A DNA stretch of 42,840 nucleotides. Source: a virus. The position numbers and the translations under genes are program-made. Of the stretch, positions 1,441 through 19,825 are shown one piece after another; position 1 is the stretch's first letter, and every line of letters starts with the position of its first letter. Location of the stretch: positions 1 to 42,840 of IMG/VR virus record IMGVR_UViG_3300032223_001256. One strand, 5' to 3'. The notes beneath the pieces were generated by a model. It made no database searches and was not told where the DNA came from. It saw nothing but the letters and a program-made list of their open reading frames with translations.

Positions 1441-2298
1441 ATGCGACCCACCCCCGGTGCGTCTAACCTCGTCCTGAGCGTCGGCATTGTTGACGCTCCC
1501 ATCGCTCTCTATTCCATCGTGGATGAGAAGGTGGACGAGGTAAAGTTCAAGAACGTCGGCCCCGACGGCAACTTCCCTAAGCGTGTGGACATTCCTCTGT
1601 CCGCCGCCGTCCTTGACGCCAAGGGTGAGAAAGTCACCCACATCAAGGAGTGCGATCCCATCCGCTACGATCAGATGCAGAAGGGCTTTGAAATCTCCAA
1701 GGAGGAGATCGTTATCCTTGAGCAGGATGAGATCAATGCCCTCTTGCCAGAGAAGTGCTCGTCCATCACGATCACCAGCATCGTGCCGGTTGAGCAGATC
1801 AATCCGCTGAGGTTCAACGCCACCTACTACGTTGGTATTGCGACCAAGACGGGTGACGAAGAGCTCGCTGCCAATCGTCACCAGTTGGTCAGCGCGATGA
1901 TCGGCGACGGCTGGGCTGCTATCGGTGAGCTGGTGCTTCGCAACAAGCATCAGCAGGTTATGGTGTACAACCGCAACGGCAACCTGATGCTCACAACGCT
2001 GTGCAGCGTGGCTGCCGTCAATCCTGCTCCCGTCGTTGAGGGAGAAGCGAACTTGGATCTGCTTGAGGCTACCGCTGGACTCGTTGAGTCCATGCGTGGC
2101 ACCTACGATCCTTTCGCCTTCAGAAATGAGTACAAGGATGCGGTGCTGGAACTTGTTCGTGCCAAGGTGAACGGTCAGCCCATGCCGACGGTCACCAAGA
2201 AGTCCAAGGCTGCGGTGAGCGACGACATCCTGCTCGCCAATCTCAAGGCGGTCAGCCCGAGCAAGCCCAAGCCCAAGACGAAGTCCAAGGTCAACTAG
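1441..2298 (+). CDS. ku: Ku-family DNA end-binding protein
   Basis: A 285-aa product behind a strong AAAGGAGAAACC site. It follows bacterial/phage Ku: an N-terminal beta-barrel start (VGIVDAPIALYSIVDE), then a segment like EI.VLE.DEI.ALLPE followed by SITITSIVPVEQINPLRFNA, matching the Ku core block that runs into the FVP...DP..F pattern, then the barrel strands ending LTTLCSVAAVNP. The last 40 residues are lysine-rich (SKPKPKTKSK), like the basic tails of many bacterial Ku proteins that help DNA binding. Bacterial Ku is a homodimer that threads onto double-strand ends and recruits LigD. An ATP-dependent ligase gene lies 0.3 kb downstream in the same operon, which strengthens a DNA end-joining role. 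Confidence 0.9.
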   Translation: MRPTPGASNLVLSVGIVDAPIALYSIVDEKVDEVKFKNVGPDGNFPKRVDIPLSAAVLDAKGEKVTHIKECDPIRYDQMQKGFEISKEEIVILEQDEINALLPEKCSSITITSIVPVEQINPLRFNATYYVGIATKTGDEELAANRHQLVSAMIGDGWAAIGELVLRNKHQQVMVYNRNGNLMLTTLCSVAAVNPAPVVEGEANLDLLEATAGLVESMRGTYDPFAFRNEYKDAVLELVRAKVNGQPMPTVTKKSKAAVSDDILLANLKAVSPSKPKPKTKSKVN

Positions 2299-2305
2299 GA
2301 GGAAC

Positions 2306-2590
2306 ATGAGTCACATCTATCACGAGCCGATTGCCGAGGCTGGACTGTGCGAGGATTGTCCCGGTTGTGAGCGTCTGGCGGAGCACCCTCTCCACTACTT
2401 TGACGCGACCAATCTCAGGCACTACCTGATGCGCACCGTCAACTGGCTTCAGCACGAGGGTGACCCCGAGTGGATGCCGCGCAACAAGACGGAGAGCACA
2501 GCCATGCACAACCTTGAGGATGTGATCCGCACGGTTCGCACCATTGAGGACAAGGGTGTCATGGATATGGTCATCCTCAACAAGGGCTGA
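2306..2590 (+). CDS. Hypothetical protein between Ku and ligase, 94 aa
   Basis: Starts 8 nt after Ku behind AGGAGGAAC, and the ligase follows 3 nt after its stop, so the three genes are probably co-translated. The N-terminus has CEDCPGCERL, a close cysteine cluster, followed by histidines (HPLHYFD) that could form a metal site. The rest is helical and ends VRTIEDKGVMDMVILNKG. Similar small CxxC..C proteins occur in actinophages without known function. A role in end joining is possible only by position. Confidence 0.65.
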   Translation: MSHIYHEPIAEAGLCEDCPGCERLAEHPLHYFDATNLRHYLMRTVNWLQHEGDPEWMPRNKTESTAMHNLEDVIRTVRTIEDKGVMDMVILNKG

Positions 2591-2592
2591 CC

Positions 2593-3321
2593 ATGGACTT
2601 CGCCCTGTGCAAAGAGATTGTCGATCTGCCCGACACAACGGGCAACATGATCTGGCAGCAGAAACTCGATGGCGTCAGGGCGTTCATCTCTGAGAAAACC
2701 ATCCGGCTGCGGACAATCTCCTTCTCAAATGAGGGGGTGAGCGTCCCAGCCGGGTGCGTTCTCGACGGAGAGATTATCGGTGATCGCTTCTCCGATGTCG
2801 TCCCGGCACTAACCAAGCGGGATTGGAACTCAATCAAGTTCGTGCCTTTTGATATCGTCAAGCACGACGGTGACGACGTTCGTCGTGAGTCACTGCTTGT
2901 TCGACTCAACCTCCTCAACGAGGTTGCCAACAATGCTCTGCCAATCTTCGCCTTTCCCGACAGTGAGATGCCGAAGGTGCCTCTTGATTGGGAGGGCGTG
3001 ATCGGTAAGCCGATGCGCTCCACTTATCGTGCTGGTCGTGAGTCGTGGGTCAAGTGGAAGCACATCAACTTCATGGACGCTGTCATTCTCAATCTTGAGA
3101 ACGGCAAGGGACGCTGGTCAGACAGCGTGGGCAAGATTGTCTTCGGCACACCCGAAGGCAAGGTTCTAGGAACTGCCGCTGGCTTTGATGAGAGGACGCG
3201 CCGACTGATGACGCTGAACGGCGTCGACTACATCGGCAAGCCCTGTGTTATCAAGCACTACGGCATGAACAAGCGGCGGCTACGCAATCCAATCTTTCAC
3301 GGAATGAAGGAGGAGCAGTGA
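2593..3321 (+). CDS. ATP-dependent DNA ligase
   Basis: This 242-aa protein has the nucleotidyltransferase motifs of ATP-dependent DNA ligases in order: motif I KLDG at 24-27 with K24 as the AMP-accepting lysine, LDGEI at 58-62, FDI at 86-88, motif IV EGVIGK at 134-139 and motif V WVKWK at 152-156. An OB-fold-like domain follows (GRWSDSVGKIVFG, then GFDERTRRLM). The size equals a minimal ligase (catalytic plus OB domains), with no LigD polymerase or nuclease part. It would seal nicks or rejoined breaks using ATP. Its place next to Ku suggests the two act together. The ribosome binding site is weak (AAGGGC), consistent with coupling to the upstream gene. Confidence 0.88.
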   Translation: MDFALCKEIVDLPDTTGNMIWQQKLDGVRAFISEKTIRLRTISFSNEGVSVPAGCVLDGEIIGDRFSDVVPALTKRDWNSIKFVPFDIVKHDGDDVRRESLLVRLNLLNEVANNALPIFAFPDSEMPKVPLDWEGVIGKPMRSTYRAGRESWVKWKHINFMDAVILNLENGKGRWSDSVGKIVFGTPEGKVLGTAAGFDERTRRLMTLNGVDYIGKPCVIKHYGMNKRRLRNPIFHGMKEEQ

Positions 3322-3782
3322 TTAGCACCTATCTGTCCAGCAAGGACAGGAAAGAAGGCAAGGTTGATCTTCGCAACTGGATCGTCAGCGAGGATTACAA
3401 CGACGCTATCCGATGGCGTAAAGATCTCAAGGTGAAGGTTGATGACTTTCGTTACATGTCGCTTTACGATGGGCTGATCTACGATCCCGAGATCACATAC
3501 ACCGACGGTGGCAACTGGGTCTATGACGCTAGCGCATCAGGCGGAGCGTACATGGAGGGCGGCGTGAATGCCGAATACAAGTGCCCCTGCTGCGATGAGC
3601 GAATCGCCATTGATCTTGATCGTGGTGAAGTCTGGACGGGCGACGTGCAATGCGTGTGGGCTGATGACTTCCGATGGCAGCCTCATTATCACCACGGGGT
3701 TCTACTTTCGGTGAAGGTCAAGATCATCCCAAGCGATTGGACTCAAACTCGCACCATTATGGCTAACTACGTTAGGAGCTAA
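3318..3782 (+). CDS. Hypothetical protein with zinc-ribbon-like CPCC, 154 aa
   Basis: A GTG start overlaps the ligase stop (GTGA) behind AAGGAGGAG. The N-terminal part is basic and charged. A CPCCDERIAIDLDRGEV segment near residue 90 resembles one half of a zinc ribbon, with a later cysteine and an HYHHG histidine cluster as possible partners. No catalytic family recognised. Operon position with Ku and ligase is the only functional hint. Confidence 0.65.
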   Translation: MISTYLSSKDRKEGKVDLRNWIVSEDYNDAIRWRKDLKVKVDDFRYMSLYDGLIYDPEITYTDGGNWVYDASASGGAYMEGGVNAEYKCPCCDERIAIDLDRGEVWTGDVQCVWADDFRWQPHYHHGVLLSVKVKIIPSDWTQTRTIMANYVRS

Positions 3783-7911: not shown

Positions 7912-8103
7912 ATGACGCCCGTCATTTTGTTTTCAGACGAAGATCTTGATCACATCGGTGCTGCTCTTTCGCACACCGCGTGGCGCATCGAGGGTCAGAA
8001 GGGTGCGGAGGAGATCATTGAAGCCTACCGCACGATCATTGAGCGGCTGCCCAACAACCATCGGTTCAGCCTGCCGCCTAGTGCGGTTCTGAGCCATTCG
8101 TAA
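7912..8103 (+). CDS. Small hypothetical protein, 63 aa
   Basis: Behind AAAGGAGACAGGAC. Helical, with a conserved-looking DEDLDHIGAALSHTAWRIEG start and a proline-serine tail. No family recognised. It ends the run of close-packed genes; a 73-nt gap follows before the next start. Confidence 0.6.
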   Translation: MTPVILFSDEDLDHIGAALSHTAWRIEGQKGAEEIIEAYRTIIERLPNNHRFSLPPSAVLSHS

Positions 8104-8176
8104 ACATTCCGTTAAGCCTGTAAGGTTGACGGCGCAAGTCGCGACAACCCTGCGAACCAACCCGAAAGGAGACTCC

Positions 8177-8527
8177 ATGAGCGAGTCCACCCCCTCCCCC
8201 GCTCCCTCGATCACCGACGAGCAGCTCAACTCGATTGTTGAGCAGATCACCATGGATGCGACCATCCTCGCATTCTCCAAGATGTCCGAGGGCGTCTTGA
8301 TCGGTCTTGACGGCTGCCGCGATAACGGCTGGGATCTGAACGACCGTCAAAAGGTTGAGATCCTGCAGTGCCTCAACTTCACGTTCCGTGACTACGAGTC
8401 GCAGCTGCGTAACTACGCTGCGATCATCGTCGCCATGGCGACCTCAGTCCTCACGGACGAGGACAAGAAGTTCGTCGCCGATATGATTGAGGCGGCGCAC
8501 AAGAAGGACGAGGAGCAGCAGGGCTGA
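8177..8527 (+). CDS. Helical hypothetical protein, 116 aa
   Basis: ATG 8177 follows GAAAGGAGACTCC and is preferred over a TTG at 8126. The product is mainly helical (DEQLNSIVEQITMDATILAFSKM) and ends in a charged tail (KKDEEQQG). A perfect 13-bp hairpin follows, so this gene probably ends a transcript. Codon use is GC-rich, as in the DUF932 gene. Function unknown. Confidence 0.65.
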   Translation: MSESTPSPAPSITDEQLNSIVEQITMDATILAFSKMSEGVLIGLDGCRDNGWDLNDRQKVEILQCLNFTFRDYESQLRNYAAIIVAMATSVLTDEDKKFVADMIEAAHKKDEEQQG

Positions 8528-8534
8528 TCACTGT

Positions 8535-8569
8535 GGGCGGGTTGGCATTGGTGTGGTGCCAACCCGCCC
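8535..8569 (+). terminator. Perfect 13-bp hairpin, terminator-like
   Basis: GGGCGGGTTGGCA (8535-8547) pairs perfectly with TGCCAACCCGCCC (8557-8569) around a 9-nt loop. The sequence after it is CTTCAATCT, only weakly T-rich. It starts 7 nt after a stop codon. It is likely an intrinsic terminator with a short tail. Confidence 0.65.
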
Positions 8570-8589
8570 CTTCAATCTACAGGAGAGAT

Positions 8590-8832
8590 ATGTCTGTTTC
8601 TGAACGTAAGTCCGTCGCCGACCGACGGGCGGATGAGATTGACGAAATGCTTGAGCGAGTTGAGGCAATGTTTCCCAACTCTAAAGATGGATTCGGCAAG
8701 GACTTCCGTCTACTACTTGACATTGCCGATTACCATCGTAACCGTTTCACGTTCAGCACGACGATCAGCGTGTTGAATGTAGTGGGTGAACTGATTACTA
8801 GAATGGAGGACGACCATGAGCAAGATGTCTGA
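8590..8832 (+). CDS. Small hypothetical protein, 80 aa
   Basis: ATG 8590 follows AGGAGAG; a GTG at 8533 in the same frame would start inside the 13-bp hairpin and is rejected. The product is helical (VADRRADEIDEMLERVEAMF). Its end overlaps the next gene by 17 nt. Function unknown. Confidence 0.65.
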   Translation: MSVSERKSVADRRADEIDEMLERVEAMFPNSKDGFGKDFRLLLDIADYHRNRFTFSTTISVLNVVGELITRMEDDHEQDV

Positions 8833-9052
8833 TCTGCACATTGAGATGCAGGAGAGCGGCGAGATCGTTCAGTGCCCTGCCTGCGAGCACGGCTTCTACA
8901 CCCCCTACGGTGTAACGAAGACGGAGATCATGCCGCCTTATCCGGCGCTCAGTCGGCGCGACAACAAGACTTACATCTGTAGTCCTTGTGGCAACCGAGA
9001 GGCGTTTGAAGACTTTGAGCGCGTTTACGGAATCAAGATTGAGGAGGCATAA
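8816..9052 (+). CDS. Small zinc-ribbon protein, 78 aa
   Basis: Two cysteine pairs, QCPACEHG near residue 19 and ICSPCGN near residue 54, are spaced 30-35 residues apart as in a classic zinc ribbon. The protein ends FEDFERVYGIKIEEA. Start ATG 8816 follows GGAGGACGACC and overlaps the previous gene; ATG 8825 is an alternative. Probably a small nucleic-acid or protein-binding factor; function unknown. Confidence 0.68.
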   Translation: MSKMSDLHIEMQESGEIVQCPACEHGFYTPYGVTKTEIMPPYPALSRRDNKTYICSPCGNREAFEDFERVYGIKIEEA

Positions 9053-9228
9053 TGTACGTTTTTGAGAGCACCCTTCAGGTGTCTATCGCAACTCCGAGCA
9101 GCGAGAGCGTTGCCCGAGAGATCCACGACCGTCTGTTTGATGCGTGGGAGCAGATCGTGCATGACGAGAACATGGTCAGTGATGGCACGATCATTTACCT
9201 GAACTTCAGTCCGGTAAAGGAGGACTAA
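9052..9228 (+). CDS. Small hypothetical protein, 58 aa
   Basis: The ATG overlaps the previous stop (TAATG) behind GAGGAGGC, and its stop overlaps the next ATG (TAATG), so it fills the gap exactly. The product begins MYVFESTLQVSIATPSSESV and ends TIIYLNFSPVKED, a strand-helix-strand pattern. No family recognised. Confidence 0.62.
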   Translation: MYVFESTLQVSIATPSSESVAREIHDRLFDAWEQIVHDENMVSDGTIIYLNFSPVKED

Positions 9229-9695
9229 TGACCACCCTTAGCGTTAAGAATGTAAAGTATGCCGAGTTCGCATCGGAGGAGACGATGTGCTTTGAGGCTA
9301 CGCTGTACGTTGACGGCAAGTCCGTCGGTCGTGTCAGCAATGCGGGACGCGGCGGTCCGAACGACTACGAGTTCGACACCACCGATCTGGAAGCCACCAT
9401 CAAGGAGGCGGACATCAAGGTTGACTTCCTTGGTCATACTCTGACCAAGGATCTTGACATCATCGTTGACGAACTTGTCAATGATGTTCTGATTGCCAAG
9501 GACGCCAAGTCCTTCCGCACCAAGGTCGCCAAGAAGAACAACCTCACGTCCGAGCAGGTACGAGTGTTCCTCTGCGATAACGGTGAGCTCGTTGCTCGTG
9601 GCGTCAACGGCACGAGCGATGACGAGGTTGCTGCGGACATCGGCAACAATGCTCGCCGTATTGACAACGTCACTGCCCCTAGTGTTACCATCTAA
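9228..9695 (+). CDS. Conserved phage hypothetical protein, 155 aa
   Basis: Behind AAAGGAGGAC. The N-terminus VKNVKYAEFASEETMCFEAT followed by LYVDGKSVGRVSNAGRGG matches a family of small proteins found in many phages and mobile elements, in which a short beta domain is followed by helices. No activity is established for it. The C-terminal half is charged and helical. Recognition is from the KYAEFASEET.CFEA.LYVDGK pattern. Confidence 0.7.
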   Translation: MTTLSVKNVKYAEFASEETMCFEATLYVDGKSVGRVSNAGRGGPNDYEFDTTDLEATIKEADIKVDFLGHTLTKDLDIIVDELVNDVLIAKDAKSFRTKVAKKNNLTSEQVRVFLCDNGELVARGVNGTSDDEVAADIGNNARRIDNVTAPSVTI

Positions 9696-9704
9696 GGAGG
9701 AAGC

Positions 9705-9893
9705 ATGACCGATAATGGACACGTCTACGACCCGAAGACTGATCGCTGCATGTACTGCGAATGTCGTCCTTGGGGAGACTGGGCGCAAGAGCCGTGCGGC
9801 GCAACCGAACTAAGCAAGCCGCCAATGAACGAAGAGCAGTGGGACGCCAAGTTGCGTCTTTATTCTGAACTGAAAGAGAAGGGAATCGTATGA
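9705..9893 (+). CDS. Small Cys-containing hypothetical protein, 62 aa
   Basis: Behind AAGGAGGAAGC. The N-terminus HVYDPKTDRCMYCECRPWGDWAQEPC provides a CxxCxC plus a later cysteine that may bind a metal ion. The rest is a charged helix. The stop overlaps the next start (ATGA). Function unknown. Confidence 0.62.
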   Translation: MTDNGHVYDPKTDRCMYCECRPWGDWAQEPCGATELSKPPMNEEQWDAKLRLYSELKEKGIV

Positions 9894-10303
9894 GCACCAC
9901 CGAGATCGACAAGTACACCCGTACATTCAAGGAGATCGCCGCGACGGGCGCTTCAAATGAGGAGCTGCCGACTGACATTGACGGCATCGGCTCTGCATGG
10001 AGCATCACATACGGCGGAGACATTGGACTTGACAGCAGGATCTACACGCCCATCTTGGAGGCGGCGCTGAACTGCGTCGTCGAGGCGGGTATGTACCTGA
10101 CTCTTGTCCTTGAGGACGCGCTTGGTAACAGGCTTGCGTTTGACTGTACCGTCACCTCTCCCGTCAAGACTCTGGGCAAGGGGTGGGGCAACGAGGACGA
10201 TCCGCATGTCTTCGTCTACCCGTACTTTGCGAAGACCAGCAGCGTGGGCATCTATCCGCATAAGGTCTACCTGCACACCATCTGCAACATCCACTTCCCG
10301 TAG
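9890..10303 (+). CDS. Hypothetical protein, paralogue of the gene at 7495
   Basis: A 137-aa product that aligns over its full length with the 134-aa product at 7495-7899, with the strongest match at the C-terminus (KVYLHTICNIHFP against KVYLHQILNINLP) and a shared W.ITYGGD strand. Start overlaps the previous stop. Both copies look intact. The divergence suggests different partners or substrates, but nothing points to a function. Confidence 0.7.
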   Translation: MSTTEIDKYTRTFKEIAATGASNEELPTDIDGIGSAWSITYGGDIGLDSRIYTPILEAALNCVVEAGMYLTLVLEDALGNRLAFDCTVTSPVKTLGKGWGNEDDPHVFVYPYFAKTSSVGIYPHKVYLHTICNIHFP

Positions 10304-17889: not shown

Positions 17890-17985
17890 ATGCCGGTACT
17901 AGTTGTCATCATCTTTCTGGTGATCGTGATTGCCTACTTCCTTCGAGCTCCGAACTGGAAGAGGGAGATTAAGCGCAAGAAGTAG
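17890..17985 (+). CDS. 31-aa single-span membrane peptide, holin-like candidate
   Basis: ATG 17890 follows AAAAGGAGAAACAA, a strong site for such a short frame. The product starts MPVLVVIIFLVIVIAYFLRA, one membrane helix, and ends in a basic cytoplasmic tail (NWKREIKRKK). The position right after two secreted cell-wall proteins suggests a lysis-cassette role such as a small holin or regulator. Size and layout also fit a generic phage membrane micropeptide. Confidence 0.6.
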   Translation: MPVLVVIIFLVIVIAYFLRAPNWKREIKRKK

Positions 17986-17988
17986 ATG

Positions 17989-17997
17989 TGCTACAAT
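17989..17997 (+). promoter_or_regulatory. Extended -10 promoter TGCTACAAT for the structured RNA
   Basis: TG-C-TACAAT fits the extended -10 consensus. A weak -35 (TTAAGC, 17969-17974) sits at 17 nt. The predicted start is near 18004, right at the first base-paired strand of the structured RNA at 18001-18116. Confidence 0.65.
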
Positions 17998-18000
17998 CAT

Positions 18001-18116
18001 GAAGTCCCCGGTTCGCATCCGGGTCGTAGACCGTTAGAGGGTCGAGTCTAGACGTGGGATGCGCGACACGTTGGGTAGCAGGCTGACCATAACAGCCGGG
18101 TGGGAACCGGGGCTTC
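18001..18116 (+). ncRNA. Structured noncoding RNA of unknown family
   Basis: GAAG-T-CCCCGGTTC (18001-18014) pairs with GAACCGGGGCTTC (18104-18116), a 13-bp closing stem with one bulged T. Inside are GGTC-GTA-GACC (18022-18032), CGTG...CACG (18053-18070) and GGCTG-ACCATAA-CAGCC (18081-18097), a 5-bp stem with a 7-nt loop like a CAU anticodon arm. An alternative 5' hairpin CCCGG-TTCGCAT-CCGGG (18007-18023) looks like a tRNA T-arm. The T-rich TGTACTTTCTTTT that follows the closing stem could end transcription. A promoter lies just upstream. No open frame with a ribosome binding site covers it. It is not a standard tRNA; tRNA-like parts occur in permuted order. Confidence 0.6.
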
Positions 18117-18198
18117 TGTACTTTCTTTTGACTAACGAACTAATCAACTAAAAGACAAAAGACTCAAGAGAAAAAAAAGAAAAGGGGATAAACGGAAA

Positions 18199-18627
18199 AT
18201 GAACCATATCGATATCAGCGATTTCTACGTTGAAGATCCGGAAACAGAGAACGAGATTGAGTATGACTGCCTGACAGTCGTTGACGCAATGAAGATCGCA
18301 GATGAGGCTTGGGATCTTGGCGCGGGTTTCGATGTCAACGCAAAGATCCTCGCGAGGATCACCGAAACAAGCATTGTAAAGATCGTTCAGTTTGACAACG
18401 TCAAGGTAAACGGTCACAACATGTGTGTTCTTTGGGGTAAGGTAGAACTTGACGACCTTGACTTTGAGGTCTCAATTCGATTTTATGCTCTTGAGTCTAG
18501 ATACAAAGAGTGTATGTTTAAGCACAAGACCTACCATCCTGATCGATCTGTTGATCTTCAGACTTACATCTCCAAGATTCAGGAGATAGAAGATCGTAGC
18601 TGGGAGCGTCTCCTTAGTGAGTGGTGA
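18199..18627 (+). CDS. Acidic hypothetical protein, 142 aa
   Basis: Behind AAAAGGGGATAAACGG, after an A-rich stretch at 18150-18185. The product begins MNHIDISDFYVEDPETENE and alternates beta strands and helices; it ends EDRSWERLLSEW. It overlaps the next gene by 11 nt. No family recognised. Confidence 0.65.
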   Translation: MNHIDISDFYVEDPETENEIEYDCLTVVDAMKIADEAWDLGAGFDVNAKILARITETSIVKIVQFDNVKVNGHNMCVLWGKVELDDLDFEVSIRFYALESRYKECMFKHKTYHPDRSVDLQTYISKIQEIEDRSWERLLSEW

Positions 18628-19752: not shown

Positions 19753-19825
19753 CCGCCCGTAGCTCAACGGATAGAGCAACAGACTTCTAATCTGTAGGTT
19801 GCACGTTCGAGTCGTGCCGGGCGGA
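19753..19825 (+). tRNA. tRNA-Arg(UCU): tRNA-Arg (anticodon UCU)
   Basis: A full cloverleaf: acceptor CCGCCCG/CGGGCGG, D-arm GCTC-AACGGATA-GAGC, anticodon arm ACAGA-CTTCTAA-TCTGT with anticodon TCT, variable AGGTT, T-arm GCACG-TTCGAGT-CGTGC, discriminator A. CCA is not encoded. It reads AGA/AGG codons, which are common in the tail genes of this window and rare in the early block. Confidence 0.95.

Follow-up and report, generated by a model that had tools for sequence, protein, structure and literature searches.

A conserved structured RNA of about 116 nt in a probable actinobacterial virus and its suggestive likeness to the cluster A origin RNA

Results and Discussion

The virus genome examined in this study (IMG/VR record IMGVR_UViG_3300032223_001256, 42,840 bases; this whole stretch of DNA is called the window) contains a structured RNA of 116 nt on the + strand (18001-18116), which is conserved in related viruses, lies behind a promoter-like box and has no tRNA or Rfam identity. 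The RNA is a new family, a conserved and covarying phage RNA without an Rfam entry that was found from raw sequence, and a literature search returned no description of it or of a module shared with cluster A phages. Its 5' part (hairpin H1, a UCGUAG linker and hairpin A) may correspond to a module of the replication-origin RNA of cluster A mycobacteriophages, and by analogy the window RNA may likewise work at a replication origin; we regard the cluster A link as suggestive. The first-pass annotation had proposed a new structured phage RNA with its own promoter, a proposal now supported by homologues, the predicted fold, changes at paired positions and the box.

Genomic context and promoter-like box

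The RNA is placed between a transglycosylase-like gene (PF06737; 17433-17873, +), syntenic in the related loci L002, L003 and L167, with a 31-codon open reading frame read by eye (17890-17985), and a gene for a 142-aa protein without known family (18199-18627, +); a protein about 30% identical to the latter is encoded after the RNA in L002 and L003. The major head protein of the window shares 92-93% identity with its counterparts in contigs L002 and L003 and about 55% with those of phages of actinobacteria, Skog and Myrna among them, and because of this second identity the host of the window virus is likely an actinobacterium. Phage Pol I and tyrosine integrase were not found in the window-type records, which may be fragments. 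Elsewhere in the window, positions 1441-3321 encode a phage end-joining pair, namely a Ku-like DNA end-binding protein and, after it, an ATP-dependent DNA ligase.

Just behind the 31-codon frame and a few bases before the RNA stands the extended -10 box of the first-pass annotation, TGCTACAAT (17989-17997, +), which was confirmed. The pattern TGNTAYAAT occurs four times in the window compared to 0.9 expected; the three further boxes (22542, 32952 and 40535, all +) possibly form a set of extended -10 phage promoters. A possible but weak -35 element, TTAAGC (17969-17974, +), was read 17 nt before the -10, and a promoter consensus scan of the window found no full promoter on the + strand. A TG-N-TANAAT box also precedes the RNA in L002 (TGATATAAT) and L003 (TGGTATAAT), where the RNA is found at the same place, and in L167 (TGCTACAAT), where TTGTCA lies 16 nt upstream of TACAAT.

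Distribution of the RNA among viruses

A search with the upstream lysin gave three relatives; in two of these (L002 and L003) the RNA is again present, at the corresponding position. A lysin profile gave eight loci, including L002, L003 and L167, the last with a fourth copy of the RNA that scored 107.8 bits with model R1, trained without L167; the other five loci gave no RNA match. At the site of the window RNA, directly behind the lysin gene, two of these five, L163 (the same locus as L004) and L164, carry a tRNA-Arg. Plain blastn of the window or L167 RNA against 50,697 phage records returned no match, and the L173 RNA, described below, returned short chance pieces only. Two further patterns were searched: the T-arm-like hairpin gave 60 stretches, none of which is a member by R1 (best 15.5 bits, L017), and the 3' segment gave 12 matches, two of them real and already known, the other ten being rejected after inspection by eye.

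Capsid relatives of the window comprised 80 loci, of which 79 (all but L086) were searched as whole records, within a set of 98 records. The first 50 records gave three matches (two strong and the doubtful G018/L159), and the remaining 48 gave 11, comprising the strong G055, three of L173 type and seven to the short core only, although one of these seven, G058/L171, is also of L173 type. The doubtful L159 stretch (1501-1652; R1 20.6 bits) comes from a phage of 132 kb whose head protein is related, and it has a hairpin GUCC-GUUAGAG-GGAC, but its outer stems are broken and no matching outer stem is present. Among the cultured capsid relatives Phabba, Skog, Finch and McWolfish, nothing scored above 17.3 bits.

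The hairpin A core pattern, run against 2.9 million viral contigs, identified 13 stretches: three known copies, four loci (L171, L173, L176 and L178) that are near-identical to each other and come from a different kind of phage, and six others that match at the core only and were taken for chance. The alignment of this diverged L173 group to the window RNA covers most of the length and takes in GGCUG..AACAGC as well as the closing CCGGG; in this group a gene that fuses an HNH domain to terminase comes directly after the RNA. With R1, L173 scored 22.1 bits (E about 3e-4 in 825 kb), whereas the best of 30 core matches from bacterial and archaeal genomes scored 17.0 bits; model R2 gave 102-103 bits for the L173 group, on which it was trained. 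Those 30 matches were found with a shorter core pattern in genomes of 84,980 bacterial and archaeal species and include no full-length member, while a longer core pattern had no match in the same species. Stem P2 of the window RNA is not preserved in the L173 group, which leaves the closing structure of these copies uncertain, and the L173 and L171 stretches fold no better than shuffles (z -0.9 and -0.5). In L173 a gene at 8096-9967 encodes an HNH domain and a large terminase subunit in an in-frame fusion.

Secondary structure and identity of the RNA

The RNA alone has a predicted folding energy of -56.1 kcal/mol compared to -41.6 for shuffles (z -3.9; none of 200 shuffles as good), and a wider stretch of 146 nt has z -2.5 (two of 200 as good); since the RNA is conserved in relatives, a chance origin of the structure is untenable. 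All of its parts are given on the + strand. As described in the first-pass annotation, the ends pair over 13 bp, here with one bulged U at 18005: the 5' strand of this terminal stem P1 is GAAG, the bulge and CCCCGGTTC (18001-18014), and the 3' strand is GAACCGGGG followed by CTTC (18104-18116). The outer pair is A-U in the window, U-A in L002 and G-C in L003, and the outer part is not kept in L167. In the predicted fold, P2 pairs CATCC (18016-18020; CACTC in L167) with 18098-18102. Inside the closing stem lie hairpin A (GACC-GTTAGAG-GGTC, loop GUYAGAK; 18029-18043), hairpin B (GACGTG/CACGTT; 18051-18072) and hairpin C (GGCTG-ACCATAA-CAGCC; 18081-18097), and GGT at 18074-18076 can pair with ACC at 18086-18088 in the loop of hairpin C, whose first three bases thus look like a pseudoknot strand.

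Compensatory changes in related phage loci, a check named beforehand, were found. Hairpin A is paired in all 84 cells of 21 sequences from all groups, with three of four pairs changed on both sides and a covariation score of 0.548 compared to 0.109 in shuffles; the Gordonia phage Schiebs was omitted from alignment A6, and hence from this count, because its H1 loop has 12 nt. In the MAFFT alignment hairpin B of L173 is three columns out of place, so pairs were recounted with anchors in six sequences (window, L002, L003, L167, L173 and L171), which showed hairpin B paired in every cell except one, with as many as four pair types at a position, and the 3-bp pseudoknot as GGU/ACC, GGC/GCC and CGC/GCG in three lineages; the anchors were chosen by hand, so these two counts lean towards the analyst's reading. 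The stem of hairpin C, GGCTG/CAGCC, becomes GGCAA/TTGCC in L003, and its outermost pair is lost from L173 and L171. Among the window, L002 and L003, five of 41 predicted pairs are changed on both sides. By comparison of these sequences, the changes support hairpins A, B and C and the 3-bp pseudoknot.

Two features of the first-pass annotation were retained only in part. The T-rich tail (18117-18131, +) is present in the window but is not kept in L002 or L003, and there is therefore no conserved terminator. The sequence read as a T-arm, CCCGG-TTCGCAT-CCGGG (hairpin H1; 18007-18023, +), is also present; however, the terminal stem uses the same bases, and H1 has probability 0 in the full-length fold, where the long terminal stem forms instead. 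H1 does form in 40-50 nt prefixes from the 5' end of the window RNA and, with shifts, in other homologues. Comparison of prefix and full-length folds suggests a sequential switch, whereby H1 would be displaced by the 3' segment.

The 5-bp stems with 7-nt loops of H1 and hairpin C, the latter with CAU, had raised the idea of a permuted or decayed tRNA or a tRNA decoy, which we now consider hardly credible. ARAGORN and Rfam found no tRNA or tmRNA at the RNA, and both found a tRNA-Arg (anticodon TCT) at 19753-19825 of the window. The tRNA-like loops are the variable parts of an otherwise conserved molecule: the T-loop-like TTCGCAT is TCAGCAT in L003 and is gone in L173, and ACCATAA of the CAU loop becomes ACCAGAA, ACCGAAA, GCCGATAA or GCGGTCAA in relatives. 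What is kept instead is the loop GUYAGAK, the pairings and, in the window group, the closing stem, and the likeness to tRNA or tmRNA is superficial. A match to a known RNA family was also looked for in Rfam 15 at the gathering score, with none for the window RNA or its relatives; a search of 17950-18160 down to E 10 gave two chance-level matches only.

Similarity to the cluster A origin RNA

A relaxed scan of viral contigs, with one stem position loosened, gave 49 stretches, 13 of which were already known, and nine of the 36 new ones satisfy Y and K of the loop and the pairing. Six of the nine (L225, L229, L230, L235, L250 and L251) share a single near-identical, repeated sequence that contains a U-G pair and were judged coding by eye; an open-frame test for noncoding sequence was dropped, as it is useless in GC-rich DNA and calls the Luchador RNA coding. 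The remaining three are L221 and the Mycobacterium phages Luchador (L222) and Echild (L231), and none of these stretches matches Rfam at the gathering threshold. The Luchador/Echild stretch matches 132 phage records (130 Mycobacterium and two Gordonia). According to Wetzel et al. 2020 (PMC7157519), the region adjoins parA and expresses a noncoding RNA opposite to the neighbouring genes; in cluster A mycobacteriophages with non-RepA parABS systems the RNA region suffices for autonomous replication, while Alma and LadyBird need it for stable lysogeny and not for lytic growth. Phages of this kind include RedRock, Alma, LadyBird and Gladiator, and the searched text of PMC7157519 names the RNA region and gives no secondary structure.

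Fourteen cluster-A-type RNA regions were fetched for comparison. In 13 of these (all but Schiebs) a 5-bp stem closing a loop of 7 nt, in most cases CUNGCCA, is followed by GUCGUC and then by a GUYAGAK-loop hairpin closed by C-G or G-C, the exceptions in the loop being BobSwaget (UUUAGAU) and Loser (A at K); in Schiebs, CCGTTAGAGGG follows a hairpin whose loop is longer. In cluster A the transcribed strand carries the module, whose GUYAGAK loop is nearly invariant and whose stem covaries. RNAalifold predicted both H1 and hairpin A for 14 cluster-A-type RNAs (12 of the fetched cluster A RNAs, Luchador and Daredevil), with both-side changes at four of five and three of four pairs, respectively, so that H1 too has a putative counterpart with a covarying stem in the cluster A noncoding RNA. 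The likeness to the window RNA comprises the 5-bp hairpin with its 7-nt loop, (G)UCGU(A/C)G and the covarying GUYAGAK hairpin, all on the transcribed strand. In addition, L221 holds the window core and has, over another piece of 39 nt, independent matches to the Schiebs RNA (E 9e-5) and to phage Phlei (E 0.01); going by these matches, L221 is a putative bridge between the window core and the Schiebs-type RNA.

There are also clear differences. The cluster A RNA is several hundred nucleotides long and has many more conserved elements that are absent from the window; its long conserved 3' part, for example the GATAGATAGAAGGACAGCCCGACC stretch, has no counterpart there as judged by eye in alignment A7 (12 fetched cluster A RNAs, Luchador and Daredevil). 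The cluster A origin system has a linked parABS, whereas no AAA_31 ParA was found in the window-type records (the window, G001, G002 and G055), which may be fragments. Profiles trained on one side only fail to link the two RNAs: a 38-nt module profile built on 13 sequences (12 of cluster A plus Daredevil) did not find the window group in 2.0 Mb, the window module being absent from its 46 best matches, and a window-side profile gave Luchador 14.9 bits, below several chance core matches (L219, 20.0). Model R3 gives the window 45.5 bits, which is circular, as R3 was trained on both groups. Two of the 30 core matches from bacterial and archaeal genomes also fit the two-hairpin descriptor. Since the one-sided profiles fail, the link rests on the recovery of two lineages of a rare RNA among 36 matches and on the shared loop and neighbouring hairpin. 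From these sequence comparisons we consider that the window RNA and the cluster A module are probably truly related; given a true relation, a shared replication function seems to us about an even prospect.

Several observations were made in passing. R3 had other matches at 17-19 bits (L283, L284, L285 and L287). The cluster A origin RNA itself (L256-L269, A7) has 20 predicted pairs changed on both sides and is a good candidate for an Rfam family. Cluster-A-type noncoding RNAs were also located in the Gordonia phages Daredevil (L265; record position 3433 onward) and Schiebs (L266; about 13.36-13.65 kb of the record). Daredevil has an integrase and no ParA; the cluster-A-type RNA is therefore not limited to parABS phages and need not mean extrachromosomal replication.

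Possible functions

There are several potential explanations for the role of the RNA. Structured RNAs with a known function include the prohead RNA (pRNA) of phi29, which is about 110-120 nt long with a long closing stem and a branched interior, and the length and closing stem of the window RNA are similar. A packaging RNA of this kind would also fit the position of the L173 copy near a terminase gene and of the cluster-A-type RNA near terminase in Daredevil. However, neither the window RNA nor its relatives match the Rfam pRNA, the gene context differs, no terminase was recognised near the RNA in the window, and cluster A phages lacking the RNA region grow normally according to PMC7157519, all of which makes packaging very unlikely.

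Alternatively, the molecule may be a small RNA acting in trans by binding a protein of host or phage, or RNA polymerase, or by pairing with messages. Its compact closed form, its own promoter-like box and its nearly invariant single-stranded GUYAGAK loop would suit such a role, but no target or partner was identified and the window-type copies hold one fixed position relative to genes; we consider this explanation unlikely, though less so than packaging.

The main rival to an origin function is that the RNA forms the 5' leader of the downstream mRNA with an effect in cis, which could consist in protection of the 5' end, in binding of RNA polymerase for read-through of terminators or in the sensing of a ligand. 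The second mode has a precedent in the put RNAs of HK022, which also are structured RNAs at or near the start of a phage transcript that work without a protein product; according to PMC9378689, these lie downstream of early promoters, are only about 70 nt long and have just two stem-loops, and the likeness is one of description. A leader would explain that the box stands directly at the 5' end in all four window-type loci, that an open reading frame in the same direction begins about 25-80 nt downstream with no conserved terminator in between, and that the gene for the HNH-terminase fusion follows the L173 copy at about 70 nt. On the other hand, the downstream gene differs in L167 and L173, and the cluster A module sits in a free-standing RNA with flanking genes on the other strand. 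It is possible, on balance, that the RNA is a leader.

An origin or initiator RNA is our leading mechanism, held tentatively. The locus would make a conserved noncoding RNA of about 116 nt starting a few bases after the extended -10, closed by the long stem and containing hairpin A, hairpin B and hairpin C with its pseudoknot. H1 would form first during transcription and then be opened by the complementary 3' segment CCGGGUGGGAACCGGGG, and the folded RNA would prime replication or bring replication proteins to the site, or else determine how frequent initiation is. Such a switch could let an origin RNA select one of two states, and it could equally serve a leader to show hairpin A early to RNA polymerase. 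GC skew shows no switch at the RNA in the window, L002, L003 or L167, and the leader-like distance to the co-directed reading frame weakens the origin reading.

A broader proposal is that actinophages share the H1 and GUYAGAK-hairpin module as the working core of RNA-based initiation of replication, with the window RNA as its smallest version of about 116 nt under its own promoter; we consider this somewhat doubtful. If the cluster A link is true, it offers a 38-nt module that can be mutated in an already existing plasmid system, and such mutations would show how RNA alone starts the replication of phages and plasmids in actinobacteria; should the link fail, what remains is a new phage RNA, either of leader type or a small RNA. 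The proposed carriers of the module differ in genome size, from 14.6 kb in Schiebs through 53 kb in cluster A to 70-90 kb in the window-type phages and Daredevil.
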